Assembly: GCA_003697085.1 (NCBI GenBank) | Contig: RFFU01000086.1 | Span: 1 to 36,722 of the forward strand | Length of the DNA: 36,722 bases | Source of the DNA: Candidatus Hydrogenedentota bacterium | Lineage (GTDB): Bacteria; UBA8481; J006 | Direction of reading: 5' to 3' | In this document: positions 3,772 through 36,722 of the stretch, piece by piece | Layout: each line of letters starts with the position of its first letter | Numbering within the stretch: position 1 is the first letter of the stretch | Notes under the pieces: model-generated | Databases searched by the model: none | The model's input: the letters and a program-made list of their open reading frames with translations, nothing else | What the model was told of the DNA's origin: nothing | Position numbers and translations under genes: made by a program

Positions 3772-4394
3772 ACATTCTGGCCATCGGCGCCCACTACGAC
3801 GACCTCGAGCTCGGTTGTGGGGGAACTCTGGCGAAATACGTTCTCAACGGTCACAACGTCACCGGCGTCGTTGTTACTCATTCGAAATACTCCGACTATA
3901 ACGGTGAACTGATTCGGGCACGCGAGACCGCCCGCCGGGAAGGCACGGAGGCGGCTCACATCGTCGGATATGATCTCCTTTGCCTGGAATGGGAAACGAA
4001 AAAAGTCGCGTTCGGTCACGAGTTGATCGAAACGCTCAACCGGATCATCGATGAACGAGAAATCGACGTCATCTTCACCCATTGGGATTTCGACGTTCAC
4101 CAGGATCATCAAGCCATCGGAAAAGCCACTCTCAGTGCGGGAAGGAAAATCAATCGTCTTTTGATGTATCGAAGCAATCTCTATATGAATTCCATCCACT
4201 TCAATGAAAACTACTTCGTGGATATCACGGAGACGATCGAAATAAAGATGCGGGCGATCGAAGCGCACAGGAACGAGGTGAAAAAATTCGGACCGCACTG
4301 GGTGCAATTCTGGAGGAACGAAGCGGCCAACAACGGCCAGAAAGTCGGCGTCCGCTACGCGGAAGTCTTTCAGTTGGTCAAATACCTCGCGTAG
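3768..4394 (+). CDS. PIG-L/LmbE family deacetylase
   Basis: The 208-residue protein has the family signature AHYDDLELGCGG at residues 8-19, with Tyr in place of the usual Pro of AHPDD. The second metal-site block THWDFDVHQDHQ lies at 104-115; His9, Asp12 and His114 are the likely zinc ligands. Family members remove an acetyl group from an N-acetylated sugar or sugar lipid. Here it is the third gene of the radical SAM and cytidylyltransferase operon, overlapping its neighbour as ATGA with a strong AGGAAAGGAAGAGAAG upstream. That makes de-N-acetylation of the same sugar or its nucleotide precursor likely. Transcription converges on the minus-strand operon ending at 4529. The 134-bp gap between them shows no obvious terminator. 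Confidence 0.88.
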   Translation: MNILAIGAHYDDLELGCGGTLAKYVLNGHNVTGVVVTHSKYSDYNGELIRARETARREGTEAAHIVGYDLLCLEWETKKVAFGHELIETLNRIIDEREIDVIFTHWDFDVHQDHQAIGKATLSAGRKINRLLMYRSNLYMNSIHFNENYFVDITETIEIKMRAIEAHRNEVKKFGPHWVQFWRNEAANNGQKVGVRYAEVFQLVKYLA

Positions 4395-4528
4395 AAGCCA
4401 CGCCTCCCCGAGATTATCTCTTCGATTCCCACCTCGCCGCCGGGGCTTCGCGGCCGAGTCGATTCAACCGGTCCCTCACGCACCATCGAAAAAGGGGGGG
4501 GCCGCCGGAGGATATCGGGAACGGAAAA

Positions 4529-6196
4529 TCACTCGAATGAATAGAACCACTCCCGACATTCTCGGCAAAGCGGAATCTCATCCCACCGTCCCTCGTCGTG
4601 AAGCGCGAGAAACCGCCGGCATCGTTCCGAACGCCACAGGGTAACAATCCCTTCGCCGGCCGTTCCCAACGGCTCGTTTCCGTCAACGTCCTCGCGGCAA
4701 AACACGACCTCGCCCCCGGCCAGAACGTACAATCCCGAATCGATCTGCCGACATCGAAATCTTTTCAAGGGAGTGACATCCATTCCGCCGTTCCGAACAA
4801 CCTTGCCACAAAACAGGTTGTCATGGCGCAACATCGTGAAATCCACGATCGCCTCGCTTTCATAAAGTCTTCGCGTTACTTCATCCGCCGAGGCCGCCCG
4901 GCCCTCCTCGTCCCGAATCCGGTCACGGATCTTCTGGCGAAGATCAAATCGCTTGAAAAAAGCCTCAAAATCCCCCGCCGTCTCCGGCATTTCCGTAATC
5001 TGAAGAACGACATACGGTGGAAAGGGAGGCGGCAGCGGATTTTGAAGTTTTGTGACCATTTCCGCCTTCTTCCGCATCAGAATCTCGACGTTCCTCACCA
5101 TAAGAGGAAATCGTTCACCGTTCCCATTGACCCGCTCGTAAGTCTCCTTCGTCACGGCATCCATTCGCACGAATACGGCATCCACACCGGCATCGAAAAG
5201 ACCTTCCACCACGGCTTCATTCAAGAGTGTTCCGTTGGTATAGAGGTCGGTTCGGATTCCTCGTTCCGTCGCGGCTCTGATCCAATCGATCGTGTTTTCA
5301 TTCAAAAGTGGTTCCCCGAAATCCCAAAAATCCATTGAAAAGAAAGCCGTCGCCGGCGGCGGATACTCCTCGAGGACGGCCGCAAAGGTCTCCGGAGTCA
5401 TATCGACCTCACCTCGATTCGTCAGTACCGCCGGGCGTCGCAGGCGCGGCAGGTTGTCCCGTGTCGTCACTTCGATCCCGATATGCCGCGGATACGGCCG
5501 CAACAACTCCGGAAACCGCCGTGCCGTGGAGAAAAGTTCCTCGACTGTCAAAAGTCCGTTTCCGGGAAGTTCCTTCAAAAACGCGGTATATTCGCTCCGG
5601 AAACCGAAACCGACCGGCAAGGGATTCTCCCCGAACCGGTCCTCCCGCTCGATCACTTCCTGCTCCGCTTCCTCCGGATATCTCCCGGTTGCAAGATACC
5701 GTTCCGTCGCCTTCCTCGTCATCCCCATTCCGAACTCCCAGCGGAACCCGTTCCAACGCGTCATCAGGCACGCGGGATTGCGGAGCCGCGCCAAACGCAG
5801 GATATCATCCCGCCCAAGACAAACCGACGACGTTCGCAGGCGCACGACGATCTTCTCCTCACCCGTCTTCTCCAGGACGTATTCCCACATCTTCCGGACG
5901 GCTTTTTTCCGATCGTGAAGACTTTCGCCAACGTCGAAGCAACGTGCTTCCAAGGCCATTTCGCCGAGGCGCCGGAACTCCGCCTCGAACCCTTCCCTCT
6001 CTTCGGAGGAAAAGGCGGCTGACCGGGAAAGCATCCCGACCAGCAGAATCCGATCGAACCCGACCGCGCGAAGACCCTGCAACAAGCGCTCTCCCAACCG
6101 TACCTCGGGGTCCAGATCCGGACTCCTCAGAAACCGGCCCTGGAATCCCACGAGGGTACCGACCACAACCACAATCATTGGGTTCTCTTCACTCAT
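4529..6196 (-). CDS. Nucleotidyltransferase-like and degenerate radical SAM/SPASM fusion
   Basis: The 555-residue protein has two parts. Residues 1-220 resemble an SpsF-type nucleotidyltransferase, though the catalytic signature is weak (VVVVGTLVGFQGRF instead of QARMGSTRLPGK). Residues 236-555 follow a radical SAM/SPASM plan: IGIEVTTR, then the cluster site, then WDFGEP (291-296), LYTNGTLLN and a SPASM tail with cysteines at 463, 482, 500, 526, 544 and 547. The cluster site itself reads DNLPRLRR, so Asp247, Arg251 and Arg254 replace the three cysteines. SAM cleavage is therefore unlikely, while the auxiliary-cluster cysteines survive. It is the last gene of the minus-strand nonulosonate operon. 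ATG 6196 follows GAGGGAG closely; ATG 6178 (residue 7) with GAAGAG upstream is an equally good start. From memory only, a family called spiro-SPASM has a similar layout. Confidence 0.8.
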   Translation of the reverse strand: MSEENPMIVVVVGTLVGFQGRFLRSPDLDPEVRLGERLLQGLRAVGFDRILLVGMLSRSAAFSSEEREGFEAEFRRLGEMALEARCFDVGESLHDRKKAVRKMWEYVLEKTGEEKIVVRLRTSSVCLGRDDILRLARLRNPACLMTRWNGFRWEFGMGMTRKATERYLATGRYPEEAEQEVIEREDRFGENPLPVGFGFRSEYTAFLKELPGNGLLTVEELFSTARRFPELLRPYPRHIGIEVTTRDNLPRLRRPAVLTNRGEVDMTPETFAAVLEEYPPPATAFFSMDFWDFGEPLLNENTIDWIRAATERGIRTDLYTNGTLLNEAVVEGLFDAGVDAVFVRMDAVTKETYERVNGNGERFPLMVRNVEILMRKKAEMVTKLQNPLPPPFPPYVVLQITEMPETAGDFEAFFKRFDLRQKIRDRIRDEEGRAASADEVTRRLYESEAIVDFTMLRHDNLFCGKVVRNGGMDVTPLKRFRCRQIDSGLYVLAGGEVVFCREDVDGNEPLGTAGEGIVTLWRSERCRRFLALHDEGRWDEIPLCRECREWFYSFE

Positions 6197-6358
6197 ACTC
6201 CCTCACCAACTTACCTTCGCCACACTTTACCCCGAAAGAGCCACCGTTTCGAAGCCAAAACTTCGCCTTCTCCCCTTGGCTCCCTTGGAAGGCCTCCTCT
6301 CCGGAGGGAAAAGCACCGATATTCCCCATAATTCTCCAACGCCCCTCCCCCGACGCCA

Positions 6359-7327
6359 TCAATCGCATCGCACGTCTTTCCCATCGCCCCTACGCTCCGC
6401 CAAGGCATAGCCGTAGCGAGCCATCTTTTCCGCGTACTCTTCCCCAAGTATTCCAGCGAGGCGGCCGTTCGAAGAAATGAATCTTTTTCTCAATTCTTTT
6501 CTCAATCCCGCCGGCAGCCGCCAGGGAATCCGAAGGGGACGATCCAAACCTCCGCGAGCAATTTCGTCCCGAATCACCCTCAACCAGCCCGACTTATCGG
6601 ACCGCCCGGAATCTCCCGGCGAAAAAAAACTGTTCAACCGGCGTGCGGCCAAGAGAGAGAAAGTTCCCAACCGAGGGTTCACCCGTCGGCTCCCCATGGC
6701 TGCCGGTTCCGGCACCCCGTCCCACCCCGCGAATCGCCATATCGAACCCAAAAAGGCCGTCACGTCATGGCACAAATCCTCGTATAAGACGACGAAGACG
6801 CGGGAAGGCCCGAAGAGTTCCCTGTAAAGCCCAACGAGCCGATCATATTTGAGCCGGCGAAAAAGCGCCCCTTGGAACGGCCCGGAAGCCGAAAGAAATT
6901 CCTTCACGGAGAGACTTCCTCCCATTTTCACATACTGACTGTAGATCGACTCTACCATCGTGCTTTGCTCGCGGATCGTAATCAGAATCTTTGCGGCGGG
7001 GAACGCCCTCCTCACGCGTTCGGCCGTTCTCCTCCAAAAGCGACCGGTCACCATCTCTCCCGATAACCGCTCCCACGATAGGACGGGGATGTACCCCGAG
7101 GGAATTCCCGCGGTATCAAGCAGACGGTTTTCGAAATCTTCGAGGTTGCCTGCGTCTTCCGCCTCCATGAAATGCCACAGCAATCTTCCACAAGCCGGAC
7201 CGAGCGTAAGCCGGACGCGCGGATGTCCATAACGACAGTCTTGTAGAGAAGAGGTCCCCGTTTTCTGATACCCAATGTGAAGCAACCTGATGCGCCCCGA
7301 CTTCGTCTCGAACCTTTTCGTCGTCAC
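6359..7327 (-). CDS. Sulfotransferase family protein
   Basis: The protein has 322 residues from GTG 7327. HIGYQKTGTSSLQ near residue 20 is the PAPS 5'-phosphosulfate loop. AKILITIREQSTMVESIYSQ in the middle matches the 3'-phosphate binding region, including Arg and Ser. It should sulfate a cytoplasmic glycan or lipid intermediate, like the gene at 219-1280, from which it differs strongly. I chose GTG 7327 because it overlaps the upstream stop as GTGA, the junction style of this operon. A TTG at 7354 in the same frame, with GGAAG upstream, would add nine residues. The segment after the PAPS loop is somewhat short, but the frame is continuous and no frameshift is needed. A 162-bp gap separates it from the last operon gene. 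Confidence 0.85.
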   Translation of the reverse strand: MTTKRFETKSGRIRLLHIGYQKTGTSSLQDCRYGHPRVRLTLGPACGRLLWHFMEAEDAGNLEDFENRLLDTAGIPSGYIPVLSWERLSGEMVTGRFWRRTAERVRRAFPAAKILITIREQSTMVESIYSQYVKMGGSLSVKEFLSASGPFQGALFRRLKYDRLVGLYRELFGPSRVFVVLYEDLCHDVTAFLGSIWRFAGWDGVPEPAAMGSRRVNPRLGTFSLLAARRLNSFFSPGDSGRSDKSGWLRVIRDEIARGGLDRPLRIPWRLPAGLRKELRKRFISSNGRLAGILGEEYAEKMARYGYALAERRGDGKDVRCD

Positions 7328-7983
7328 CGGGGAAGTGTTATTCCTCTTCGACAAACAAATGCTTCCACACGCTCCAGATCCTCCGGAGTATCGATCGTGA
7401 GACTCGGGGCGGATTCCAACGGAGTTTCCGCACCCAGGACGAGCACGCGAAACGCGTCCTTGTTGCGAAGGACGTACTCATTTACGTGCTCTCTATCCGA
7501 GGCGGAAAGGGTTTTTCGGTCCAAGTCTTCGAGGAGTTCCGCGGTAAACACCTCGGATCCGACACCCTCGGGCAAGCGACTCCCGGCTTCGGCCTTGCAC
7601 GAAGAATAATCGGCCCTTGCTTCCCGATGCGCCGCCAGAAGCGTCCGACACCAACCGACGTCGAAGAGAGGGTTGTCAGCGGTCAAGCGGACAACCGTGT
7701 CAACGTCGAAATGCCGCACTGCCGAGGCATAACGGCCCAAAACGTCTTCCTCGCTCCCGCTGAAACACGGCACGGCGTACTTCCGACACCAATCGCGGAT
7801 CGGATCGTTGGCTTGAATCTCTCCGGTTAAAACCGCAACGACCGCTTCGGAAGCAACACGTCTCGCGCGCCGAACACTCCATTCCAAGAGGGGATGCCCC
7901 CGCAGTGTGTTGAGGACCTTTCCAGGAAAACGCGCAGAGCTCATTCGAGCTTGAATAAAGAGGCCGGTTCGAAACGCCGTCAT
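7324..7983 (-). CDS. spsF: SpsF-type cytidylyltransferase
   Basis: The 219-residue protein carries the clear family motif FIQARMSSARFPGKVL at residues 9-24, followed by VRLTADNPLFD in the middle, where the metal-binding Asp lies, and LTIDTPEDLERVEAF near the C terminus. SpsF-like proteins are small CMP-sugar-type nucleotidyltransferases that occur with NeuB/SpsE and SpsG. All three occur in this operon. It probably activates or modifies the sugar acid made by the NeuB homologue. Together with the gene at 2962 and the N-terminal domain at 4529-6196, the island holds three nucleotidyltransferase-like domains, so at least two activated sugars are possible. ATG 7983 overlaps the previous stop as ATGA; GGAAGGA lies immediately upstream. 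Confidence 0.88.
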   Translation of the reverse strand: MTAFRTGLFIQARMSSARFPGKVLNTLRGHPLLEWSVRRARRVASEAVVAVLTGEIQANDPIRDWCRKYAVPCFSGSEEDVLGRYASAVRHFDVDTVVRLTADNPLFDVGWCRTLLAAHREARADYSSCKAEAGSRLPEGVGSEVFTAELLEDLDRKTLSASDREHVNEYVLRNKDAFRVLVLGAETPLESAPSLTIDTPEDLERVEAFVCRRGITLPR

Positions 7984-9020
7984 TTTCCTTCCGTGATACC
8001 GGCAGCTCCGCCGGTAATCTCCTTTCTCTCCGTCTCCTCCCGACCCTTCCGGCTCGCTTCTTGAAGACGCAGGAGTTCCTCCGGATCCGCCAAGGCCGGA
8101 TGATCACAACCGTCACAGAGCGGGATTCCTTGAAGATTCCCCGCGAGGTGCCTTCGCCGCCATTCGCGGATGACGGCGTTGTTCCATATCCGGACGAGCG
8201 GGTCCTTTCTTATATCCCCGTAAACAAGTTCCGCATCGAAATCTATGCAACAGGCCGTAACGGTTCCATCGTAATTCACGACGATTCTGTCCCAGAGAAG
8301 ACGGCAAGGCCGAATGGCCGCCTTTTTTTGGAAAAAAGAGGATTTCTCCTCCTCGATTCGTCCGCCAAGATTTCCCAGAAAACTGAAGAGGATCTCGTCA
8401 CACATCGGCTCGAAGAGATCTCGAAAATCCGCGAGGTGTGCTTCATTCCTCCGCATCACGACGGCGGCGCAGATGATCCTCATTTTCGAACCCGTGCGGT
8501 CACGCACCGTACGAAGCAATCGAACGTTCTCGATAAGTTTCTCGAAACTACCGTTGACACGTATGGCCTCATATTCCTCGCGGGTGGCTCCGTCTATGCT
8601 GAACTTGAAACTGGCCAATCCCGACAGGCAAAGCGCCTCCGCAAGGGGAGGATTCAGGAGAAGTCCGTTCGAAGTCAGATAGCAGGACAGCCCTGCGTTT
8701 CGAACCGTTCGGATCGCATCAAGCAATCCTTTGTGAAGAAGAGACTCCCCGGTTGTAAAAAGCGCCACATCCTCGATCCCCATCTCGGCCGCTTGAGAAA
8801 CGGTCTTCTCAATAATCTCCGGAGCCATCATCCCTTTTCGACGGACCATTGCCGGATTACGGCACATCACACACTTCAAATTGCAGGCATTCGTCAACTC
8901 CAACATCAAGAGTTTCGGCGGTACCGCCTCGATCAAGAGCGATTCATCCAAAGCCCTCCATCGGAACGATAATCTCTCCGCAATCCTCGTCTCTTCCCGC
9001 TCCCTCCTTCCTTCCTTCAT
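7980..9020 (-). CDS. Radical SAM/SPASM domain protein
   Basis: The 346-residue protein has the cluster motif C46-x3-C50-x2-C53 in ELTNACNLKCVMC. TTGESLLH follows as the GGE region, and YLTSNGLLL and FKFSIDGATREEYE are typical core strands. The SPASM-like C terminus has CRLLWD, TACCIDFD and PLCDGCDHP cysteines. Unlike the downstream fusion at 4529-6196, all cluster ligands are intact. It probably performs a radical modification of a sugar intermediate in the nonulosonate pathway; the chemistry is unknown. A strong GAGGGAGGAAGAGAGGG precedes ATG 9020, and both ends overlap their neighbours by 4 nt. One possibility is that this active enzyme and the degenerate one form a pair. Confidence 0.9.
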   Translation of the reverse strand: MKEGRREREETRIAERLSFRWRALDESLLIEAVPPKLLMLELTNACNLKCVMCRNPAMVRRKGMMAPEIIEKTVSQAAEMGIEDVALFTTGESLLHKGLLDAIRTVRNAGLSCYLTSNGLLLNPPLAEALCLSGLASFKFSIDGATREEYEAIRVNGSFEKLIENVRLLRTVRDRTGSKMRIICAAVVMRRNEAHLADFRDLFEPMCDEILFSFLGNLGGRIEEEKSSFFQKKAAIRPCRLLWDRIVVNYDGTVTACCIDFDAELVYGDIRKDPLVRIWNNAVIREWRRRHLAGNLQGIPLCDGCDHPALADPEELLRLQEASRKGREETERKEITGGAAGITEGK

Positions 9021-9946
9021 CCCTCTCTTCCTCCCTCATCCCTCATCTCGGTCCGTTTCCGTCCCAACATGTTGACGTAGTTTCCGGGGAGAGCCGGTGA
9101 AGCCAGGTCGTACGTTCCGGGGCGGTTCAACCTCCCGGCGGCCGCGAGAAGACGATAACGTGCATAAACAAAGGGAAGGCTGATCCAGTCCCCGACGGAA
9201 TCGTACCCTGTTCCAAAATAGGGAAGGCTTGCATCGACGCATTCGAAACCGAACTTCTCAAGATACCGTCGAAGAATCGAGGCGGAAAAGAGAAAATTAT
9301 GCCCTTGCTCGTAGGAACGGACGTGCGCCTTGAAAAGACGACCGCCGAGACCGGAAAGATTATTCGTCATCAAGAGAGCCACAACCCCGCCCGGCTTCAG
9401 GAAGAGATTTGCCTTTCGCAGACAACGCGAAGGGGAATAGGCGTGATGAAGCGAAGCACGAAACACGATCACATCGAAAAAGCATTGGGGAAAATCGATT
9501 GTTTCGAATTCTCCCACTACGGCCTCGATCCCTCTCGTTCTCGCCTCCGCAACTGCGAACTCCGAAACATCCGTTCCGTATTTTTCCCACTCCTCGCCGA
9601 AGGTTTCCAGAAAGGTCCCCACTCCGCATCCCACGTCCAGAATCCTCCCCGGTCCGGCATAGCGACGAATCGTTTCTCGTTCCCGGCGATAGACGCGCTT
9701 TCGAGCCGCTTTCAGCCGCGGAATCATCCGCGACGGTTGCTCGAAATACTGCTTCGAATAGAGCACACGCCCCTTCTCCCGCGCAGATGCGATTCGTGGA
9801 TTGGTAAAGACAAGCCCGCATTTCCGGCAGCGCGAGAGGCGATTCGAGCGCGCATGGTCCCACTCTTCCAAATCCTCGCTCCCACAAAAATCGCACGGAA
9901 CTTCCTCAAACCTCGTTCCGGGTTCCACGGGCTTTGTTTCGAACAT
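9017..9946 (-). CDS. Class I SAM methyltransferase with N-terminal zinc ribbon
   Basis: The 309-residue protein starts with a four-cysteine zinc ribbon (C18, C21, C40, C43; CDFCGS and CRKCGLVF). A Rossmann methyltransferase follows, with ILDVGCGVGTF at 102-112. Downstream blocks FDVIVFRASLHHAYSP and FLKPGGVVALLMTNN match motifs of the Methyltransf_11/23 group. This architecture is common in sugar-modifying C- or O-methyltransferases of nucleotide-sugar and surface-glycan clusters. It likely methylates the sugar made by this operon, or its nucleotide form, in the cytoplasm. ATG 9946 has GAGGAG five nt upstream. A 183-bp gap without a gene separates it from the SpsG-like gene, so an internal promoter is possible. 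Confidence 0.88.
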   Translation of the reverse strand: MFETKPVEPGTRFEEVPCDFCGSEDLEEWDHARSNRLSRCRKCGLVFTNPRIASAREKGRVLYSKQYFEQPSRMIPRLKAARKRVYRRERETIRRYAGPGRILDVGCGVGTFLETFGEEWEKYGTDVSEFAVAEARTRGIEAVVGEFETIDFPQCFFDVIVFRASLHHAYSPSRCLRKANLFLKPGGVVALLMTNNLSGLGGRLFKAHVRSYEQGHNFLFSASILRRYLEKFGFECVDASLPYFGTGYDSVGDWISLPFVYARYRLLAAAGRLNRPGTYDLASPALPGNYVNMLGRKRTEMRDEGGREG

Positions 9947-10129
9947 CCCATCTCCTCTTTCTCAAATTCTCTTCCGTCTCCCCAACAGACGCTGGACTCG
10001 TTCCTCTTCCCCCTTTCGGAGTCAATCCGAGACGTGCGAGAAGTCTCCGGCGTACCCCGTTCCTCCTCTCGAACGATGTTCGTTTCGGAAACGTTCCTCT
10101 CGCCTATCGGCTCGAAACGTTCCCCCCTC

Positions 10130-11176
10130 TTAATATATCGGCCGATTTCCCTCTCTTTCTTCCAAGACTTCCAGCAAACGCAACGTACCGAGACCATCGA
10201 CGCATTTTCGAGCCCTTTTCGCCATTCGGAGCCGCTCTTCTTTGGATTCCAGAAGACGCAACACTTCGCTTCGAATACGACACAGAGGCGTTTTTCGCCC
10301 GGACCCCAGGCAGAGCGCGAAGCCGAGGTTTTCACAAGCACGACCTTGAATCCGCTCGTGTCCGTCTTCCCAGAGCACAAGCGAAGGGATTCCCAGTGCC
10401 GCGGCCTCAAACAGAGAATTTCCGCCGGCACAGATCAAAAACGCAGCGCCCCTGAGAACATCCGCGACATTCGAAACGGCCCGCAAAGGCACAAACCGCC
10501 GCCGCCGGCCGGCCTCCGATAAAACCTTCCGCAGTTCTTCGTTGTGCCGGAATCCCGGTCCGAGAATCAAAACGATTTCTCCCTCAATCGGCAGATTCTT
10601 CAACGCCCGCGCGATACGGACCGTCGCGCCCGTGCGATCCACTCCTCCCATCATCACAACGACTTTGACGGCGCGGCCGCTAGACCCGGATATCTTTCGG
10701 AATTCCGAACGCAACAACGCATAACGAAGCCCGAAGAGGGTCCGCGGGGGAACCCTTCCGAAAGAGTAACGATGCCACGCTCTTACCGGGCTCGAATTGA
10801 CAAGAACATCCGCCTCGATCCGCAGACCTCCGAGTTGATCAATTACGACAACCCGAAAGCCCGCCCTTCCCAACAGTCTCTGATTCGAGAGTTTAACGGC
10901 GCGGTGGTTCAAGACAAAAGGATTTCCATAAGCGGCTTTCCGTATTTCACGACGGCGTAAAATCTCGCGAACGCCGCCGCGAATCTCAACATAAGGAAAA
11001 CCGGTCTTCGCCAGCACCTCCTTCGCGGGCTCGTACGGTGCAAGGAGGAAGGTGCAATGGTACCCCTCCCCGGCCGCCGCTTGTGCGACCGCCAAGGTTT
11101 CATAGAGATGACCCAGGCCGATCGAGCGCTTGACCTCGGGCCAGAGAAAGAGACATCTCCGCTTCCGCGTCTTCAC
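10130..11176 (-). CDS. SpsG/PseG-like glycosyl hydrolase or transferase
   Basis: The protein has 348 residues from GTG 11176, which has GAGGGA eight nt upstream. The frame is open back to 11377, but that part overlaps the NeuB gene and looks like a shadow. IGLGHLYETLAVAQA (His23) corresponds to the GxGH catalytic region of PseG. VVVMMGGVDRTGATV and CAGGNSLFEAAALGIPSLVL are the GT-B C-terminal nucleotide-binding blocks. PseG removes UDP from a bacillosamine-type precursor before the NeuB-type condensation. SpsG pairs with SpsE and SpsF in spore-coat sugar synthesis. The position directly after NeuB, with a 34-bp gap, fits either role. Whether it is hydrolase or transferase cannot be decided by eye. 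Confidence 0.8.
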   Translation of the reverse strand: MKTRKRRCLFLWPEVKRSIGLGHLYETLAVAQAAAGEGYHCTFLLAPYEPAKEVLAKTGFPYVEIRGGVREILRRREIRKAAYGNPFVLNHRAVKLSNQRLLGRAGFRVVVIDQLGGLRIEADVLVNSSPVRAWHRYSFGRVPPRTLFGLRYALLRSEFRKISGSSGRAVKVVVMMGGVDRTGATVRIARALKNLPIEGEIVLILGPGFRHNEELRKVLSEAGRRRRFVPLRAVSNVADVLRGAAFLICAGGNSLFEAAALGIPSLVLWEDGHERIQGRACENLGFALCLGSGRKTPLCRIRSEVLRLLESKEERLRMAKRARKCVDGLGTLRLLEVLEEREGNRPIY

Positions 11177-11210
11177 TCCAATGATCCCTCGGTGGCGGAA
11201 AGGCGCCGCC

Positions 11211-12239
11211 TCACACGTCCTCCCAGCAAATCGGCTCCTCCGCCTCGATTCTCCGGCGCGCGGAACGTCCGAGAACCTGATCAATATATTTCGGTGGAAT
11301 TCCCGTTCCCGGACGCTTGATCGCGACATTGTCCTCCGAAAGGATCTCCCCCGCCTCGATCGTTCTCGTCGAAACAAGACTCTTCCGGTTGTTAATTCGC
11401 GTCGTCTTTTCCCCCAATGCTGGACGTTTCACTCCGTCCCCGAGCGCCGCCTCGATAAGCCGGATGTTCCGAACCATTTCTTTCATCTCGGTCGGATCGA
11501 GACTGAGCATATGGTCCGGTCCATCCGCGTTTTTATCGTAAGTAAAGTGCTTTTCGATGATGTGCGCGCCGGCCGCCACGGCGGCCTCGGAAGCAATCGT
11601 TCCCAACGTGTGATCCGAAAATCCCACCGGAATCCCGAACTCTTCCTGCATCCGGCGAATACACATGAGATTCACATCTTCTATCGCGCAAGGATAATTC
11701 GTGACGCAGTGGAGAAGGGCCAATTCCGAATTGACCGCAAGGATCGTGGAAACGCTCTCCCGTACCTCCTCCAATGTACACATTCCGGTCGAAAGGAGGA
11801 CCGGTTTTCCCCGCGCCGCCACCTCCCTGAGAAACGGCAGATTGACCGCATCGTCCGAACCAATCTTATATGCGGCGCAACCTAATCTTTCCAACAACTC
11901 AACATCATCCCGATGACTCGGCGTCGAAAAGATGAATATCCCGCGTTCCCGACAGTATTCCCAGATCGCCTGGTGGACCTCGAAACTCAATTCATATTTC
12001 TTGAAGAGATCGAATTGCGAAGCCTTTCCCACATTCGGCATATCGTACATCGCCTTTCGGCTCGCAATCGTCTCCGCCCGGTAGGTTTGAAGTTTGACAG
12101 CATCACATCCGCAATCGATCGCCAAATCCACGAGACGGCAACCTGTTTCAACATCCAAGAAATTCCCCCCGATTTCCGCGATCACCCACGCGGGACATCC
12201 CACGCCGACCTCGCGTTCCCCAAACTTGACCGTCTTCAC
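11211..12239 (-). CDS. neuB: NeuB-family sialic/nonulosonic acid synthase
   Basis: The 342-residue protein is a complete NeuB. The TIM barrel starts WVIAEIGGNFLDVETG and includes DAVKLQTY. The metal-binding histidines are His210 in GFSDHTLG and His231 in IEKHFTYD. A C-terminal SAF (antifreeze-like) domain follows, with VAIKRPGTGIPP that reaches into the partner active site of the dimer. The enzyme condenses phosphoenolpyruvate with a six-carbon N-acyl sugar to give a nine-carbon 2-keto acid such as neuraminic, legionaminic or pseudaminic acid. It is the first gene of the minus-strand operon. GTG 12239 is preceded by GAGAGGAGAGGTGAG with about 7 nt spacing. The acceptor sugar cannot be assigned, because no epimerase or aminotransferase gene lies nearby. 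Confidence 0.93.
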   Translation of the reverse strand: MKTVKFGEREVGVGCPAWVIAEIGGNFLDVETGCRLVDLAIDCGCDAVKLQTYRAETIASRKAMYDMPNVGKASQFDLFKKYELSFEVHQAIWEYCRERGIFIFSTPSHRDDVELLERLGCAAYKIGSDDAVNLPFLREVAARGKPVLLSTGMCTLEEVRESVSTILAVNSELALLHCVTNYPCAIEDVNLMCIRRMQEEFGIPVGFSDHTLGTIASEAAVAAGAHIIEKHFTYDKNADGPDHMLSLDPTEMKEMVRNIRLIEAALGDGVKRPALGEKTTRINNRKSLVSTRTIEAGEILSEDNVAIKRPGTGIPPKYIDQVLGRSARRRIEAEEPICWEDV

Positions 12240-12501: not shown

Positions 12502-12548
12502 AAGATCTTCCCATTCCCTTTTTCGTTTCCCTTCCCCATTCCCTTTTT

Positions 12549-12579
12549 CTTGCCCCTGCCGTTGCCCTTGCCCTTCCCT
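12549..12579. repeat. Low-complexity TTGCCC array, copy 1 (G-rich on minus strand)
   Basis: A 27-nt stretch (12549-12575) built of TTGCCC/CTGCCG steps recurs identically at 12948-12974. A related array lies at 36613-36650 in the opposite orientation. On the minus strand it reads as GGGCAA repeats that could form G-quadruplex-like structure. Confidence 0.6.
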
Positions 12580-12581
12580 CG

Positions 12582-12756
12582 GGATACCTCGTGAAGGGGA
12601 TTCCTCGCGAAGCCTGTCCCGAGCGAACGCGAGGGGCTCGGAATGGCAGAAGGCGCGATACCACGTGGAGGGAATTCCTCAATCTCCCTACGGCGATTTT
12701 CGGAATGACAGAAAACGGTATCATTCCGAGGAGGCCAAAGGTCGACGAGGAATCCC
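12582..12756. repeat. ATTCCGAG/GAGGAATC palindromic element
   Basis: The element contains CCGAGC/GCTCGG (12619-12641) and a perfect 9-bp pair, TCGGAATGA (12700-12708) and TCATTCCGA (12721-12729). Outer arms GGAATTCCTC (12671-12680) and GAGGAATCC (12747-12755) also pair imperfectly. This nested layout resembles widely dispersed non-coding palindromes in other bacterial genomes; it encodes nothing visible. Confidence 0.6.
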
Positions 12757-12777
12757 CCACGAGCACCAATCGGCCGC

Positions 12778-12907
12778 GCAGGTTGGAGGACCTGCGCTCC
12801 ACGCCATGCCTATATCCCACTCGCATTCCTGCAAGCAAGATGCCTGCGCTCCCAGGGATGGCGCTCCTTGCGGGTCTTCCCGCAGGCATGATGCCTACGC
12901 TCCCAGG
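12778..12907. repeat. GCAGGC palindromic repeats, three units
   Basis: The three units are GCAGGT-TGGAGG-ACCTGC then GCTCCA (12778-12801), CTGCAAGCAAGATGCCTGC then GCTCCCAGGG (12829-12857), and GCAGGCATGATGCCT then ACGCTCCCAGGG (12882-12907). The arms vary in a compensatory way while the tail CGCTCCCAGGG is constant. Confidence 0.7.
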
Positions 12908-12941
12908 GATTGCTTCTTCCCCTTTTCCCTTTTGCCTTTTT

Positions 12942-13042
12942 CCTGCCCTTGCCCCTGCCGTTGCCCTTGCCCTTTTTCCGTGTCCTCTGTGTCTTCCCTG
13001 GTTCCTTTCCCTTCCGTGTCTTTCCGTGTGTTCCGTGGTTCG
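12942..13042. repeat. TTGCCC array copy 2 followed by CACGGA-type repeat
   Basis: The G/C-skewed array (12942-12974) matches copy 1 over 27 nt. It runs directly into TCCGTGT-based degenerate repeats (12976-13042). On the minus strand these read CCACGGAACACACGGAAAG. A related shorter stretch lies at 12393-12433 and diverged ones at 18505-18540 and 18681-18711. Confidence 0.6.

Positions 13043-25618: not shown

Positions 25619-25622
<4 letters not shown>
24516..25622 (-). CDS. Glycosyltransferase family 4 protein
   Basis: The protein has 368 residues from GTG 25622, which overlaps the upstream stop as GTGA and has GGGAAG before it. The frame is open much farther upstream but overlaps the GT2 fusion gene there, so that part is discounted. 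VKILHLLDDAGCGGIEVFV is the typical GT4 N terminus for acceptor binding. LVIGVVAQFLPVKNHKAIL opens the donor domain, and EVYPLSLQEAMAFGCPVVAT contains the E-x7-E nucleotide-sugar motif. It should transfer a sugar with retention of configuration onto a lipid-linked or protein-linked glycan at the inner membrane. It lies between the GT2/Maf-like fusion and the ceramidase-like gene. Confidence 0.9.
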
Positions 25623-29103
<3,481 letters not shown>

Positions 29104-29118
29104 CGATCGTTTCCCAGC

Positions 29119-31290
29119 GTGAATTCCTCTGAATCGAATTCCGTCGTCACCTTTCTTGTCCCCGTTCACAACCGACCACGCCTCCTCCGCCAAGCACTCG
29201 ATTCCCTTCTGGCTCAGACCGATCCTCGTTGGACGGCACTGATCATCGATGACGCCTCGACGGATGAAACCCCCGAGGTCGCCCGTTCCTACACGGAACG
29301 CGACGTTCGGTTTCGGGTGCTTCGCTTGGAAGAGAAGGCCCCCAATATCGCAGCGGTTCAGAACGCTGCGCGCGGACACGTAACAACTCCCTTCATCGCG
29401 ATACAGGACTCCGACGATCTTTCTCTCCCCCAAAGGCTTGAACGCCAGTTGGCCTTTCTCGAGGCCCGCCCCGACGTCGCCGCTTGCGGAACATGGACGA
29501 TCGATATCACGATCGATGGAACCCCCCGCGGCGGCCTCGAACCCCCCGTGGATCCCGAGGAAATCGGTTATCTGGCACGTTGCGAGGATCCCGTTGCAAA
29601 TCCTACGGCGTTTCTTCGACGCCAAGCCCTCGAAGAAATCGGTTGGTTTGATGACTCCTATGCTCTCTCGTTCGACGCAAAACTCTGGAGCGATCTTCTC
29701 CGATACGGATTTTCGATCGCCAATATTCCGGAACGGTTGGTGAAGCGGCGCGTCCATCCTGCGATGAACTCGATCCTCAATGACATCAAGCCCTTTTGGG
29801 CACGCAAGGCCTACGCGTCGCTCTTTTCCGAACCGCTCACGGGGTTCGCCGCGCGGCGGCGCGAAGAACTCCTTGCCTTCTTCCGAGAGCGTTTTTCACC
29901 ACGTTGCGCCGTTTTCGGAACAGGACGGGCCGCGCGGTATTTTTTCTCTCTAATGAAGTCTCTCGGTGTCGAGATCACTTCCTTCGTGGAACGCGTTCCC
30001 CGTAACCGCTCTTTCCTCGAAACGCCGGTTCTTTCCCTCGAGGAATTTCTTTCGGGCCCTCCCCTCCCTCTCGCCGTCGCCGCCAAACCCGTCTGGTATG
30101 AAATCTGTTCCAGCGTTCCCAAGGAATTCCGCCCGTTTCCTATTCATCGGCTTCTGATTCACGTTCGTCGTTTCGAGAAGGAGCTCGGACTTCGCGATTC
30201 CGACGACGACCTCTTCCGAAAATGGGAGGCACTCCGTGAACTGTGGAACTCCTTTGGAAATGCCCCCCCCATGCTTCAGGAAGCGGATATCTTCGGAGCG
30301 GGACCGACGGGAGAGTTCGTTCTGGAACTCTGTCGTCGAAACGGCGTCACGGTTCATTTTTTCTACGATTCATGCCGCGCAGGACAGGAATTTTATGGCA
30401 TCCCTATCCGGCATCCGCAGGAGATGGAGAAGGACTGCGACAGCAACCGGCCTGTAATTCTGGCTTCCTCCCGCTGTCCCGACGAACGAGTGGAACTGGA
30501 AAATATCGTTCAGAGCGCCGGGCGGGTTCCTGTTCCGTATCAGGAATTCTTTCAGATCATCCGTCCTCTCGTGCCGGCCGCGTTGCGTCTCCTTTCCCCG
30601 AGAGAGGCGGCCTGGATCGGCCGTCACCGTCCCGGAATCGTTTGGGACGAATACGGAACCTATTGGTATGACCACGCCCGGTTTCCGCCCGAGGGCCCGG
30701 AACGAGCGGAATTTCTCCGCCGGGTGAAAGAGTTCGAGAAGTTGATCGCGAAAACGATCGCACGGGAGAAACCGACATCCGTACTGGAAGTCGGTTGCGG
30801 CATGGGCCGCCATCTGCGGAACTTGCGGAAGCATGGGGTGCCATTAACCTTCGGTTGTGATATCTCGCACCGGATGCTGAACCGATCCGGCGAGCGACTC
30901 GTGGCGGAGGCCGCGGCGGCCCGTTTGCCGTTTCGCACCGATGCCGCCGACGTCGTTTTCACCGCGGGGGGAGTCCTCCAATACCTTCCTCCCGATCAGC
31001 GTACAGGGGCGCTTCGCGAACTGATGCGCGTCGCACGCCGCGCGGTCTTCCTGTGGGAAACGAGCCCGCGGGAGGAGTCGCCGCTGGTCACGGCGGCCCA
31101 TCCGGCCGATTGGGAAGAAGAATGTCGTAAAGTGACTCCTGCCGTCCAACGGCTCACCGTCCCGGAAGACCTCAATCCTTCACCGACGGCTCCCGAAAGG
31201 CACTTTTTCCTCCGGATGAGAGCAACCTCAAAACGGAAAGAAAGCAAGGGGGAGTCCGATCAATTAACGTTTTCCCCCTCCAAGGAATAA
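29119..31290 (+). CDS. GT2 / double Rossmann / methyltransferase fusion
   Basis: The 723-residue protein combines four units. Residues 9-215 are a GT2 domain (TFLVPVHNRPRLLRQALDSL, LIIDDASTDETPEV, metal motif QDSDD at 96-100). Residues 262-345 and 388-470 are two short Rossmann-like repeats, starting CAVFGTGRAARYFF and ADIFGAGPTGEFVLE. Residues 540-705 form a class I methyltransferase, with VLEVGCGMGRHLRNL at 555-569. It could transfer a sugar and methylate it, or cap a chain. GTG 29119 lies 15 bp after sqdB with no clear Shine-Dalgarno, so coupling with sqdB is likely. The last 31 bp overlap, tail to tail, the adenylate cyclase gene. The role of the duplicated Rossmann units is unknown. Confidence 0.83.
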   Translation: MNSSESNSVVTFLVPVHNRPRLLRQALDSLLAQTDPRWTALIIDDASTDETPEVARSYTERDVRFRVLRLEEKAPNIAAVQNAARGHVTTPFIAIQDSDDLSLPQRLERQLAFLEARPDVAACGTWTIDITIDGTPRGGLEPPVDPEEIGYLARCEDPVANPTAFLRRQALEEIGWFDDSYALSFDAKLWSDLLRYGFSIANIPERLVKRRVHPAMNSILNDIKPFWARKAYASLFSEPLTGFAARRREELLAFFRERFSPRCAVFGTGRAARYFFSLMKSLGVEITSFVERVPRNRSFLETPVLSLEEFLSGPPLPLAVAAKPVWYEICSSVPKEFRPFPIHRLLIHVRRFEKELGLRDSDDDLFRKWEALRELWNSFGNAPPMLQEADIFGAGPTGEFVLELCRRNGVTVHFFYDSCRAGQEFYGIPIRHPQEMEKDCDSNRPVILASSRCPDERVELENIVQSAGRVPVPYQEFFQIIRPLVPAALRLLSPREAAWIGRHRPGIVWDEYGTYWYDHARFPPEGPERAEFLRRVKEFEKLIAKTIAREKPTSVLEVGCGMGRHLRNLRKHGVPLTFGCDISHRMLNRSGERLVAEAAAARLPFRTDAADVVFTAGGVLQYLPPDQRTGALRELMRVARRAVFLWETSPREESPLVTAAHPADWEEECRKVTPAVQRLTVPEDLNPSPTAPERHFFLRMRATSKRKESKGESDQLTFSPSKE

Positions 31291-33032
31291 ACGGGAACCG
31301 CTTTTTCCTTTCCACGAATCTCAACGTTTCCCTTGAAGCATAAGGAAAATCGTTCTCCGATACGAACGCGGGTGTTTTCAGAAATAAGGATTTCTGTTCC
31401 GAATTTCTTGTTGAGGTTCTCCAAGCGGGAAGCCAAATTCACCTCGTCTCCCACGATCGTGAATTCCATTCGTTCCGCGGACCCCACGCTGCCGGCGACA
31501 ACAAACCCCGAATTGATTCCGATGCGGATGGCGAATTCCGGTTTTCGCTCGCGGCGCCGCCGCGCGTTCATTTCCTTCACCGCTTCTTTCATTTCCAGAG
31601 CCGCACGGCACGCCCGTTCCGCATGATCCGAAGACCACGTCGGCACTCCCCAAACGGCCATGATTCCGTCCCCGATGTACTTATCCAACGTCCCCTTGTT
31701 TCGGAAAATGATTCCAACCATCTCTTCAAAGTACTCATTCAACAGCGAGACGACCTCTTCGGGAGCCAATCTTTCGGACAGGGAGGTAAACCCCTTTATA
31801 TCGGAAAAGAGAATGGTCGTCTCGACGTTCTCACCTTTCTGTATCTTATCCGAATGCCCTTCTTCAATGATACGGTCGGCCACTTCGGGCGAGACGTATT
31901 TTCGGAAGGTCGAACGGATCCTTTCTCGCTCTTGAAGCCCTTCCGCCAGGTGGTTCAAATTATCAACCAGATCTTTCATCTCTCCGTGGTAAGGATTCGC
32001 CAATTGAAGATCGAAGTTTCCTTGAGCAAGTACGTTCATCGCGGTTATGACTTCCTCGACCGGCCGAGACACCCTCCGTGAGATCCGCATCAAAAGGAGG
32101 GACAGTGTTATCGTCAAAACCGTCCCCAGCATAATTAATTGCGCAATGCTCTTTTGAACGGGAGCCAGCGCGTCATATCTATCCTGGAGAATAAAACATC
32201 GCCAACCGTGCCCGGGATAACTGCTGTACCCGTTGCTGATTCTCATATTCGCGAGGTAAACGCTCGAACCCACCGAAACCCGGAACAGCCCCCCCGCTTT
32301 TTCCACCCGAGCCAGGGCTTTCGCCAGGGTGGACATCCGATCAATCGGCATCTTGAAACCGTCCTCGGCGATGATCTCCCCACGAGCGTTGGTTAAAATC
32401 ACCCGGTACCGGGAAGAACGCGTCCCTTTTCCGAAATTCATCTCCCGGATCAGACGTTCGAACTTCGTCCAATCCAGAATCGCCACCAGCGCCCCCACGG
32501 TGTGCATCTCCTCATCAACCATCCGTCTAATCGGGGCTCGCAACACCAAGCCCTTCCGTCCCACCGTTTCGAAGTTCCCGACGTCGCTCATATAAACCTG
32601 TGAGCCGGCCAGCAGTGTGCCGCGCCAAAACTCCTCGGGCGCCTCTTTTCCCAGCATCGCGACATCCTGCGAAGCAACGATACGGTTGTCCAGATTGATG
32701 ACGTACAATCCAGCATAAACCGAATAACTTTCCAGGGCCTCGGTGAGAAACGCGCTGATCCGCCCATCGACATCGTCGATACGGACATCCTCCATAACCG
32801 GGAGTTTTACCCATGTTTTAACATTCTGATATCTTTCGAAGAGACTCCGGTCCAAAACCTCGAGTATCTGCTTCGCCGCCGCCGCCGACCCGTTCTCTAT
32901 ATCTTGTTCCAATCCCCTTTCATTGAACCAGGTGGCGGCGCCCCCCACGACGAGGAATATGAGCACCGCCGACCCACCAGCCAAAAGCGTGACCTGTTCG
33001 CCAAAACGTAATCCGCGAAAAATCCGATTCAT
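31260..33032 (-). CDS. Membrane class III adenylate cyclase with Cache-type sensor
   Basis: The 590-residue protein has a membrane helix at about 14-36, a periplasmic region of some 260 residues with a Cache-like sensor (YAGLYVINLDNRIVASQDV), and a second helix near 305-325. A HAMP domain (RRVSRPVEEVITAMNVLAQG) precedes the cyclase domain. There TTILFSDIKGFTSLSERL and DKYIGDGIMAVWG give the two metal-binding Asp and the adenine-selecting Lys. FTIVGDEVNLASRLE has Thr where class IIIa enzymes have Asp, which points to class IIIb. It should turn ATP into cAMP in response to a periplasmic signal. ATG 33032 lacks a good Shine-Dalgarno. It follows the PstS-like gene by 63 bp, in the same direction as the porin, forming a three-gene unit. 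Confidence 0.9.
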   Translation of the reverse strand: MNRIFRGLRFGEQVTLLAGGSAVLIFLVVGGAATWFNERGLEQDIENGSAAAAKQILEVLDRSLFERYQNVKTWVKLPVMEDVRIDDVDGRISAFLTEALESYSVYAGLYVINLDNRIVASQDVAMLGKEAPEEFWRGTLLAGSQVYMSDVGNFETVGRKGLVLRAPIRRMVDEEMHTVGALVAILDWTKFERLIREMNFGKGTRSSRYRVILTNARGEIIAEDGFKMPIDRMSTLAKALARVEKAGGLFRVSVGSSVYLANMRISNGYSSYPGHGWRCFILQDRYDALAPVQKSIAQLIMLGTVLTITLSLLLMRISRRVSRPVEEVITAMNVLAQGNFDLQLANPYHGEMKDLVDNLNHLAEGLQERERIRSTFRKYVSPEVADRIIEEGHSDKIQKGENVETTILFSDIKGFTSLSERLAPEEVVSLLNEYFEEMVGIIFRNKGTLDKYIGDGIMAVWGVPTWSSDHAERACRAALEMKEAVKEMNARRRRERKPEFAIRIGINSGFVVAGSVGSAERMEFTIVGDEVNLASRLENLNKKFGTEILISENTRVRIGERFSLCFKGNVEIRGKEKAVPVYSLEGENVN

Positions 33033-34943: not shown

Positions 34944-36104
34944 GTGATAAACAAAACCAAAGACCGTGACCGATTTTTTTCAATCTACGGATTATCGAGA
35001 ACTTCTCCTCTTTTTCTCTCCTTCATCATCGCTTCCGGGATTTTGGCGGGCGAATACGCGATTATGATCTTTCTGTCCCACCATTTTTCCCAACGTTCCA
35101 ACACCTATGTCGCTCTGGTTGACTCCTTGATTCTTTCGGGATTCGTAGTCCCGCTCCTCTATTATCTGTATTACCGCCCCACCCGCCGGCTCGTCTCCTC
35201 GCTCCACCAGGCTCTCCAACAATCCCAGTTGGCCAGGGACATCGTCGCCAACACGGCCGAGGGCATAATGATCACGGATACCGTCCCCCATATCATCTAC
35301 GTCAATGATAGTTTCTGCACCATCACGGGATACCCGCGGGAAGAAGTTATCGGGAAAAATCCCCGAATTTTGAAATCCGGCGTCCACGATACCGCCTTCT
35401 ATCGCGATCTTTGGACTGAACTAACGGAACGCGGTGAATGGAGGGGCGAGATCTGGAACCGGAAGAAGAACGGGGAAATCTATCTGGAATCGCTTTCCAT
35501 ATCCGCTATCAAGAAGCCAACGGGCGAAATCACCCATTATGCGGCCATCCTTTCCCAGTCTTTCCGCGACCGTATGACGGGTCTCGCCAACCGCCACTTG
35601 CTCCTCGAAAAACTCCAAACCGCTCTCTCCCTATCTGCACGAACCAAAAGAAGAGTTGGAATCCTCTTTATCGATCTCGACGGGTTCAAAGCCGTGAACG
35701 ACACCTACGGCCACGACGTGGGCGACCGCTTGCTCCAATCCGTCGGAATTTCTCTCAAGGAATCGGTGCGTTCCAGCGATGTTCCCGCCCGTTTCGGCGG
35801 CGATGAGTTCGTCATTCTCTTGCACGAAATCGATTCACCGAACTCCGCACGAAAAGTCGGCGAACAGTGCCTGAAAAAAATCCAAGACATCAGTTCTACT
35901 CGAAACGAGTGGTGCTCGGTAACCGCCAGCATTGGAGTTTATGTCACGACAGGGCGCGAAGACCCCGATGCCATTCTCGCTCTGAACAAGGCCGACAAAA
36001 CAATGTACGAAGCGAAGAAAAAAGGAAAGAATTGCGTCGTTCTGCGAACGGCAATTCTCGATACGGCCGATCAACAGGCTAAATCCACGAAATTCGAAGA
36101 ATAA
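34944..36104 (+). CDS. Membrane PAS-GGDEF diguanylate cyclase
   Basis: The 386-residue protein has two membrane helices at about 22-44 and 54-76. A PAS domain (NTAEGIMITDTVPHIIYVND and the C-terminal strand) covers about 95-205, and a GGDEF domain about 210-370. The active site RFGGDEFVILL is intact. RSSD lies five residues before GGDEF, so the product-inhibition I-site RxxD is present. Other blocks are DRMTGLANR, FIDLDGFKAVNDTYGHDVGD and ADKTMYEAKKKGKN. It should make cyclic di-GMP from two GTP, tuned by the PAS and membrane parts. GTG 34944 follows AAAGGAGGAG and GAGAGG, a strong site. It is divergent from the porin operon, and its 3' end faces the two minus-strand RNA units. Confidence 0.93.
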   Translation: MINKTKDRDRFFSIYGLSRTSPLFLSFIIASGILAGEYAIMIFLSHHFSQRSNTYVALVDSLILSGFVVPLLYYLYYRPTRRLVSSLHQALQQSQLARDIVANTAEGIMITDTVPHIIYVNDSFCTITGYPREEVIGKNPRILKSGVHDTAFYRDLWTELTERGEWRGEIWNRKKNGEIYLESLSISAIKKPTGEITHYAAILSQSFRDRMTGLANRHLLLEKLQTALSLSARTKRRVGILFIDLDGFKAVNDTYGHDVGDRLLQSVGISLKESVRSSDVPARFGGDEFVILLHEIDSPNSARKVGEQCLKKIQDISSTRNEWCSVTASIGVYVTTGREDPDAILALNKADKTMYEAKKKGKNCVVLRTAILDTADQQAKSTKFEE

Positions 36105-36160: not shown

Positions 36161-36191
36161 AAAAAAAAAAGCGGGAATGGCGAGTTCCCGC
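36161..36191 (-). terminator. Intrinsic terminator A
   Basis: On the minus strand GCGGGAA, loop CTCGCCA and TTCCCGC form a perfect 7-bp stem (36191-36171), followed directly by ten T (36170-36161). It ends RNA A; the plus strand has no U-tract here, so it does not end the GGDEF gene. Confidence 0.8.
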
Positions 36192-36254
36192 ATTTCGTCG
36201 TTGGATAATACCTCTTCCGAGGAAACCCTCGGAGGTGAGAAAATTTCAGGCACT
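36161..36254 (-). ncRNA. Candidate small RNA A (sigma-28-driven)
   Basis: If transcription starts about 6-7 nt after the sigma-28 -10 box, this RNA of about 90 nt begins near 36254. Its 5' hairpin is ACCT-CCGAGG-GTTT-CCTCGG-AAG-AGGT (three-base bulge). The block GGTATTATCCAA follows, then the terminator stem GCGGGAA/TTCCCGC with ten T. There is no start codon with a Shine-Dalgarno and no ORF of note. It is a clear relative of unit B, 220 bp to the right. The target is unknown. Confidence 0.55.
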
Positions 36255-36259
36255 ATCCT

Positions 36260-36286
36260 TCTTCGGCAACGGGGGGAGGAACTTGA
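36260..36286 (-). promoter_or_regulatory. Sigma-28-type promoter A
   Basis: TCAAGTTC (36286-36279), 11 nt, then GCCGAAGA (36267-36260). The FliA consensus is TAAAGTTT-N11-GCCGATAA; it matches six of eight at each box with exact spacing. It shares its layout with promoter B. Confidence 0.5.
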
Positions 36287-36383
36287 GGGAAATTTGTGTA
36301 GAAAAACCTACACTTCTCAAAAAAAACGGTCTCTTGTGGAAAACGTCTCCGCTCCGCTCCCACTACCGCCGCTTCCGAGCCGG

Positions 36384-36417
36384 AAAATATAAAAGGCGGG
36401 AGTGGCGAGCTCCCGCC
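36384..36417 (-). terminator. Intrinsic terminator B
   Basis: On the minus strand GGCGGGAG, loop CTCGCCA and CTCCCGCC form a perfect 8-bp stem (36417-36395), followed by TTTTATATTTT. Compared with terminator A, one stem pair has changed from A-T to G-C in both arms at once, with an identical loop. Confidence 0.75.
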
Positions 36418-36472
36418 TCGCGTATTGAATAATACCTTTCCCGACTTCTCGGAGGGCGAGAAGTTCCGGTAA
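36384..36472 (-). ncRNA. Candidate small RNA B (sigma-28-driven)
   Basis: This RNA of about 88 nt starts near 36472. The 5' hairpin is CCG-GA-ACTTCTCG-CCCTC-CGAGAAGT-CGG, an 8-bp core plus an outer 3-bp stem. GGTATTATTCAA follows, then the terminator stem GGCGGGAG/CTCCCGCC with the same CTCGCCA loop as unit A. GCGAG just before the terminator could pair with CTCGC in the loop, giving an alternative fold. No ORF is visible. The paralogous unit A lies downstream. Confidence 0.6.
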
Positions 36473-36477
36473 TATTC

Positions 36478-36504
36478 TTATCGGCAGAGATCCAGATAAC
36501 TTGA
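36478..36504 (-). promoter_or_regulatory. Sigma-28-type promoter B
   Basis: TCAAGTTA (36504-36497), 11 nt, then GCCGATAA (36485-36478). The -10 matches the FliA consensus at all eight positions, the -35 at six of eight (TAAAGTTT), and the spacing is exact. It is the best sigma-28 site in the window. Confidence 0.65.
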
Positions 36505-36612: not shown

Positions 36613-36650
36613 GGGAGGGCAAGGGCAGGGGCAAGGGCAAGCACAACGGC
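36613..36650 (+). repeat. GGGCAA array with G-quadruplex pattern
   Basis: GGG-A-GGG-CAA-GGG-CA-GGGG-CAA-GGG (36613-36637) satisfies the G3N1-7 quadruplex pattern. The array is related, in inverse orientation, to the TTGCCC arrays at 12549-12579 and 12942-12974. Confidence 0.6.
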
Positions 36651-36722
36651 AAAAAGGAGAAGGATCAAGCACGGGGGCGAAGGCAGGAGTAGGGGCGGAA
36701 AAAGACGCTACCGCGCTTGTTC

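Follow-up and report, generated by a model that had tools for sequence, protein, structure and literature searches.

Two terminator hairpins with a constant loop end predicted FliA-driven antisense RNAs to a flagellin leader

The window analysed here is a stretch of 36,722 nucleotides from a Hydrogenedentota genome (G000), and its minus strand carries two terminator hairpins with different stems and identical loops. In plus-strand reading, stem A (36171..36191) is GCGGGAA-TGGCGAG-TTCCCGC and stem B (36395..36417) is GGCGGGAG-TGGCGAG-CTCCCGCC, with a run of ten T (36161..36170) behind terminator A and a T-run (TTTTA; 36391..36394) behind terminator B. Because the T-runs and the promoters described below lie on the minus strand, this is the functional strand, and the loop in the RNA therefore reads CUCGCCA. 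The initial annotation had reported the two stems and their shared loop, and both were located: the pattern CGGGARTGGCGAGYTCCCG, with up to three mismatches, has two sites in the window, which are stems A and B, against an expectation of 0.07, and no shuffle of the window contained two matches. Its claim of an A-T pair in one stem matched by a G-C pair in the other, on both arms, is true of the innermost pair (A-T in stem A, G-C in stem B); with two sequences and one compensated pair, A and B by themselves constitute weak evidence for covariation. Of the 166 hairpins resembling terminators that were counted over 443 kb of G000, two have the TGGCGAG loop, namely stems A and B; the CUCGCCA loop is thus not typical of terminators in this genome. 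A third copy (C; G001, L010) has the terminator stem GAGGCAGAAG/CTTCTGCCTC and the same loop as A and B. Over copies A, B and C, three terminator stem pairs are altered on both arms and none of the seven loop positions is altered. The check on further copies proposed with the initial annotation thus turned out in its favour within the three copies in reach, as C keeps the loop and shows paired changes in the stem.

A larger point, absent from the initial annotation, is that the hairpins end what are predicted to be promoter-driven antisense RNAs. Stems A and B terminate a tandem pair of predicted minus-strand RNAs of about 85-95 nt each. From predicted start to T-run, sRNA A spans 36161..36253 (minus strand; model R1 match 36161-36260, 84 bits) and sRNA B 36391..36471 (minus strand; model R1 match 36386-36479, 112 bits), the start of B being set 7 nt past the -10 box and possibly lying a few nucleotides earlier. 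Upstream of sRNA A is a sigma28-type promoter, TCAAGTTC-N11-GCCGAAGA (36260..36286, minus strand), and upstream of sRNA B a sigma28 (FliA)-type promoter, TCAAGTTA-N11-GCCGATAA (36478..36504, minus strand); the sigma28 (FliA) consensus is TAAAGTTT-N11-GCCGATAA. All three copies are preceded by TCAAGTTN-N11-GCCGAWRA. The strict sigma28 pattern has three matches in the entire 3.2-Mb genome, two of which are the promoters of A and B, and the sRNA B promoter is the top-scoring sigma28-type site in 443 kb of G000. FliA itself is found above the curated cut-off in both genomes of the phylum (G000 and G001), which encode nine and seven flagellin-domain genes, several flagellin genes being preceded by the same sigma28-type box as the sRNAs. 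The FliA-type promoters thus stand in a FliA-bearing, flagellated genome, and from these sites transcription of the sRNAs is very probably carried out by FliA (sigma28).

Copies A and B are about 70% alike and both fold better than shuffled sequences (z -4.45 for A and -3.6 for B). They share a fold plan in which a long-range stem, P1 (GNAUANURCC with GGUAUUAUYC), encloses a C-rich hairpin and is followed by the terminator. Transcription starting about 7 nt past the box, the usual spacing, would exclude part of the lower half of P1 from the transcript; one lower P1 pair shows a double change too, and the predicted start is uncertain by a few bases. No convincing open reading frame was found in the approximately 90 nt of the sRNA. 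Hfq is above the cut-off in both genomes, and the 3' end carries ten U in A and fewer in B and C, the T-runs of terminators B and C being short or displaced. Adjoining the sRNA pair is a convergent PAS-GGDEF diguanylate cyclase gene (34944..36104, plus strand), close to which lies a gene for a protein with HAMP and adenylate/guanylate cyclase domains (31260-33032, minus strand), placing two genes for nucleotide-messenger enzymes near the sRNAs. The same contig also holds a sugar-nucleotide gene island (2965-12239 and 25622-27760), with a NeuB-type synthase bearing a SAF domain (11214-12239), cytidylyltransferases of the CMP-sugar type (2965-3768 and 7327-7983), a PIG-L deacetylase and glycosyltransferases; this island could make nonulosonic acid for flagellin glycosylation.

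The phylum is represented by two of the genomes searched, and both carry the RNA, as copies A and B in G000 and copy C in G001. The folded RNA of about 90 nt is thereby kept, together with its terminator, in two families belonging to a single order, at loci that are not syntenic. When the three sequences are aligned, standard pairs fill 94% of the pair cells and double-sided changes are seen at five pairs (three of these within the terminator), against 0-1 in slid controls; over three sequences these changes provide support, not statistical proof, for the predicted fold. A covariance model run against 386 genomes gave credible matches in the two phylum genomes only. A match in G275 (E 0.007) was discarded as a lone resemblance to the terminator with an unrelated body, three of the four matches from a pattern scan of GTDB contigs failed the model (the fourth is copy C), none of 17 pattern matches in viral contigs fitted it, and the plasmids searched contained no match to the RNA. 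A match in G006 was likewise rejected, its similarity lying in the promoter only and the RNA being absent; at this site, in another phylum (C3:61179-61205, minus strand; L011), promoter and spacer are near-identical to those of sRNA B (TCAAGTTATCTGGTCATCTGCCGATCC) and are not followed by the RNA. Rfam returned no match in the window at the gathering threshold, and the generic hairpin matches obtained at a loose threshold (ylbH, L20 leader) were rejected. Low-complexity repeats of the GGGCAAGGGCAGG / CCTGCCCTTGCC type occur at the contig end and between genes (window 36615-36722 and 12510-12974; L082 1-60). These repeats may explain why the contig ends here, and further sRNA copies could therefore lie beyond.

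When the leaders of the flagellin genes were compared, the antisense strand of the sRNAs was found to resemble the leader of one of them, fliC1. In both genomes fliC1 follows flaG (identified by Pfam) as the second gene of an operon, and flaG-fliC1 has its own sigma28-type box; the fliC1 orthologs are 78% identical. The pattern ATAATAYC..GGAGG..YGA, which joins the leader core to the ribosome-binding site, has five sites in the two whole genomes, three on the antisense strands of the sRNA copies and two in the fliC1 leaders, and its reversed control has none. As this pattern was composed after the sequences had been seen, independent tests were made. An anti-leader segment in sRNA A (36199..36218, minus strand) can pair with CGTTGGATAATACCTTTTTC of the fliC1 leader along 20 bp without a break, and its counterpart in sRNA B (36424..36442, minus strand) with GTTGGATAATACCTTTTTC along 19 bp. 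A second segment complements the ribosome-binding site: UCUCACCUCCG in sRNA A (36230..36240, minus strand), and UCUCGCCCUCC in hairpin 1 of sRNA B (36451..36461, minus strand), which is matched by GGAGGGUGAGA in fliC1. Stable uninterrupted helices with fliC1 reach lengths of 20 bp (A), 19 bp (B) and 21 bp (C), each ranking first. Unconstrained duplex energies with fliC1 are -93.8 for A and -92.5 for B, the best among 292 background gene starts drawn from 443 kb of G000, the next being -79.6, and dinucleotide-shuffled sRNAs never reach these values (z -6.5 for A and -5.9 for B). Copy C with its own fliC1 gives -63.5 against -57.8 for the next gene, a small margin (z -3.8; first of 125 when C's own flank is left out).

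Comparison of the two species shows how the contact helix has changed with its pairing maintained. At position -2 a U-A pair has become A-U, at position -4 the C-G pair of sRNA A is U-A in C and unpaired for B, and the remaining differences pass via G-U. Ranks, shuffles and the covarying helix together indicate conserved complementarity to the translation start of an mRNA encoded elsewhere, on another contig, by RNAs that have predicted promoters and intrinsic terminators of their own. Cofolding, a calculation without kinetics or proteins, predicts intermolecular pairing of the Shine-Dalgarno sequence (SD) in each of the three complexes (ddG -33.7, -29.0 and -23.0). In B and C the anti-SD segment is held in a stable 7-bp hairpin, and the second contact may therefore be slow. 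The leader of a further flagellin gene (L061, on C52 of G000) has a ribosome-binding site, CGGAGGTGAGA, that is an exact 11-nt complement of part of hairpin 1 in sRNA A. This makes the C52 flagellin a possible second target of sRNA A, though with an unremarkable total energy (-66.1).

The initial annotation suggested that the loop might be a binding site in its own right, and a candidate partner, able to form 4 bp with it, is the UGGCY loop of a hairpin located in the leader of fliC1. This hairpin lies just past the flaG stop codon in both fliC1 leaders (L062 and L070) and has an identical shape in the two species, with 7+5 bp, one bulged G and a 5-nt loop that is nearly all unpaired in the ensemble, and four pairs of its stem are changed on both sides between them. 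Conserved in this way, it stands as an RNA element of its own. The GCCA of the CUCGCCA terminator loop is complementary to UGGCY over the 4 bp, and the loop-loop site falls in colinear antiparallel order with the other two contacts between sRNA and leader. Since such a 4-bp match arises by chance in 3% of random and 12% of shuffled loops (p about 0.03-0.12), the kissing contact is put forward as a hypothesis. The match of the bare terminator loop to any leader position is not significant, being equalled by 10-14% of shuffled loops. CUCG at the start of the terminator loop fits the YUNR U-turn rule. Complementarity to UGGCY is a plausible but unproven reason for the constancy of the terminator loop.

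We consider it probable that A and B are FliA-driven twin trans-encoded antisense sRNAs that repress the translation of fliC1 and form an incoherent feed-forward brake. The predicted promoters and terminators, the fold, the complementarity with its covariation, and the genome-wide specificity are read directly from the sequence. In the order of steps that we infer, the CUCGCCA terminator loop may touch the UGGCY loop of the leader hairpin, after which the 3' arm of P1 would form the 19-21-bp duplex with the fliC1 leader and the opened 5' hairpin would pair with the ribosome-binding site, in A up to the start codon. Ribosomes would thereby be kept off, and the sRNA-leader duplex would be open to RNase III. 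As for the circuit, FliA would drive target and antisense alike, and their joint expression from such promoters would set up an incoherent feed-forward loop by which flagellin is limited or timed.

The same sRNAs and the same target might instead serve activation or protection, either by opening the SD hairpin or by keeping CsrA off ANGGA, with a rise in flagellin translation as the outcome. The fliC1 SD lies in a small hairpin with an ANGGA loop (CACC-ANGGA-GGGUG) that fits the GGA-in-loop rule of CsrA, and both fliW and csrA are found in the same gene cluster as fliC1, csrA adjoining fliW there (L082, on C2 of G000, 3655-4391). In E. coli, moreover, MotR and UhpU raise flagellin (PMC10578931). 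Against activation, the sRNA occupies the SD in each of the three predicted complexes, and GGAGG is already mostly in a loop in the free mRNA, and we regard this reading as unlikely. Leaders of fliC1 and of other flagellins have ANGGA loops at the SD (CACC-AAGGA-GGGUG and CACC-ACGGA-GGGUG), a feature that suggests CsrA control of flagellin in the phylum. The fliC1 leader may accordingly be a CsrA-FliW target as well, and sRNA and CsrA might compete at its SD under the repression that we favour.

A further reading takes the sRNAs as the pseudogene-like remnant of an inverted flagellin-leader copy, with the complementarity an unused accident of descent. The antisense strand does resemble the fliC1 leader over about 50 nt, including a ribosome-binding site and a start-codon-like stretch, and an inverted leader copy may well be the origin of the sRNA. 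Decay is not what is seen: in two orthologous lineages the promoter is retained at fixed spacing, as is the terminator, and changes in the contact helix compensate one another, all of which makes an idle remnant improbable. A more tentative extension of the repressor reading would have the sRNA gene born by inverted duplication of the leader and co-evolved with it at three colinear contacts (between the terminator loop and the loop of the leader hairpin, between the P1 arm and the leader, and between hairpin 1 and the ribosome-binding site), yielding a twinned, trans-acting counterpart of the plasmid-type kissing antisense RNAs that acts as a FliA-timed brake on a single flagellin at the CsrA-FliW control point. 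That A and B are two ordinary intrinsic terminators, alike through recent local duplication and without further function, would fit two good hairpins with T-runs in tandem copies about 70% alike; it is very improbable, as each copy has its own promoter and folded body, no minus-strand gene lies upstream whose transcript they could end, another family has a third copy, and body and leader are complementary. A CsrA sponge of the CsrB/RsmZ type would suit the presence of csrA and the flagellar context, and merits still less credence, because GGA occurs in no hairpin loop of A, B or C, whose C-rich loops are complementary to sites of that kind. A cis-regulatory leader or riboswitch is scarcely credible: the folded RNA is followed by a terminator and copy C does lie about 230 nt upstream of a same-strand ABC-permease gene, but A and B are not leaders of genes, because the convergent GGDEF gene lies behind A and A's promoter behind B, and no Rfam family reaches threshold.

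The repressor reading would add an undescribed RNA family from an uncultured, little-known lineage, with a specific, testable target and circuit proposed from sequence alone, and it draws on covariation of regulator and target over two species, which is seldom available for sRNAs of uncultured bacteria. It suggests that the braking of flagellin by sigma28-dependent sRNAs, as in E. coli and Campylobacter, was reinvented in a distant lineage with a design that covers the ribosome-binding site. In E. coli the sigma28-dependent sRNAs are UhpU, MotR, FliX and FlgO, of which FliX lowers fliC mRNA and protein (PMC10578931). MotR, FliX and UhpU share with A and B a FliA-type promoter and pairing with flagellin mRNA, predicted in the case of A and B. 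The E. coli sRNAs, however, are derived from untranslated regions (motA, fliC, flgL, uhpT), and three of them (MotR, UhpU and FliX) base-pair within the coding part of fliC, whereas A and B are stand-alone twins with their own promoters and would pair over about 20 bp with the leader and with the ribosome-binding site. As stand-alone genes beside a GGDEF gene, A and B do not belong to the MotR/FliX/UhpU/FlgO group, and no sequence relation to the E. coli sigma28 sRNAs was found in Rfam.

In C. jejuni, the FliA-dependent CJnc170 (FlmR), an RNA of 47 nt, restrains filament length and motility and is believed to target class II genes, flgE among them, and CJnc230 (FlmE) acts on flgM (PMC11187230). 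CJnc170 resembles A and B as a FliA-dependent sRNA that brakes the filament, a role predicted for the latter; pairing of CJnc170 or CJnc230 with a flagellin leader, as predicted for A and B, is not described in the passages considered. Antisense RNAs of the plasmid type, with their kissing loops and U-turn loops of YUNR sequence, such as CopA, RNAIII of pIP501 and RNAII of pMV158 (PMC4485353), are likewise structured, with long, near full-length complementarity and loops that could start the contact. They are encoded opposite their target, in contrast to A and B, which lie on another contig and have imperfect complementarity, and a YUNR motif in a 7-nt loop like that of A and B is common by chance. 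CsrA-FliW controls flagellin translation at B. subtilis hag and C. jejuni flaA (PMC4894983) through the SD region of the leader, the control point predicted for A and B as well, and G000 likewise encodes csrA and fliW; CsrA-FliW is a protein regulator, whereas A and B are predicted RNA regulators that possibly compete for the same site. A and B appear to resemble the sigma28 sRNAs FliX and MotR in the role they play and to differ from them in sequence and architecture. Sigma28-driven sRNAs that touch flagellin mRNA are known, and what is new in the present prediction is an unrelated RNA family with a twin, stand-alone design directed at the leader and ribosome-binding site.
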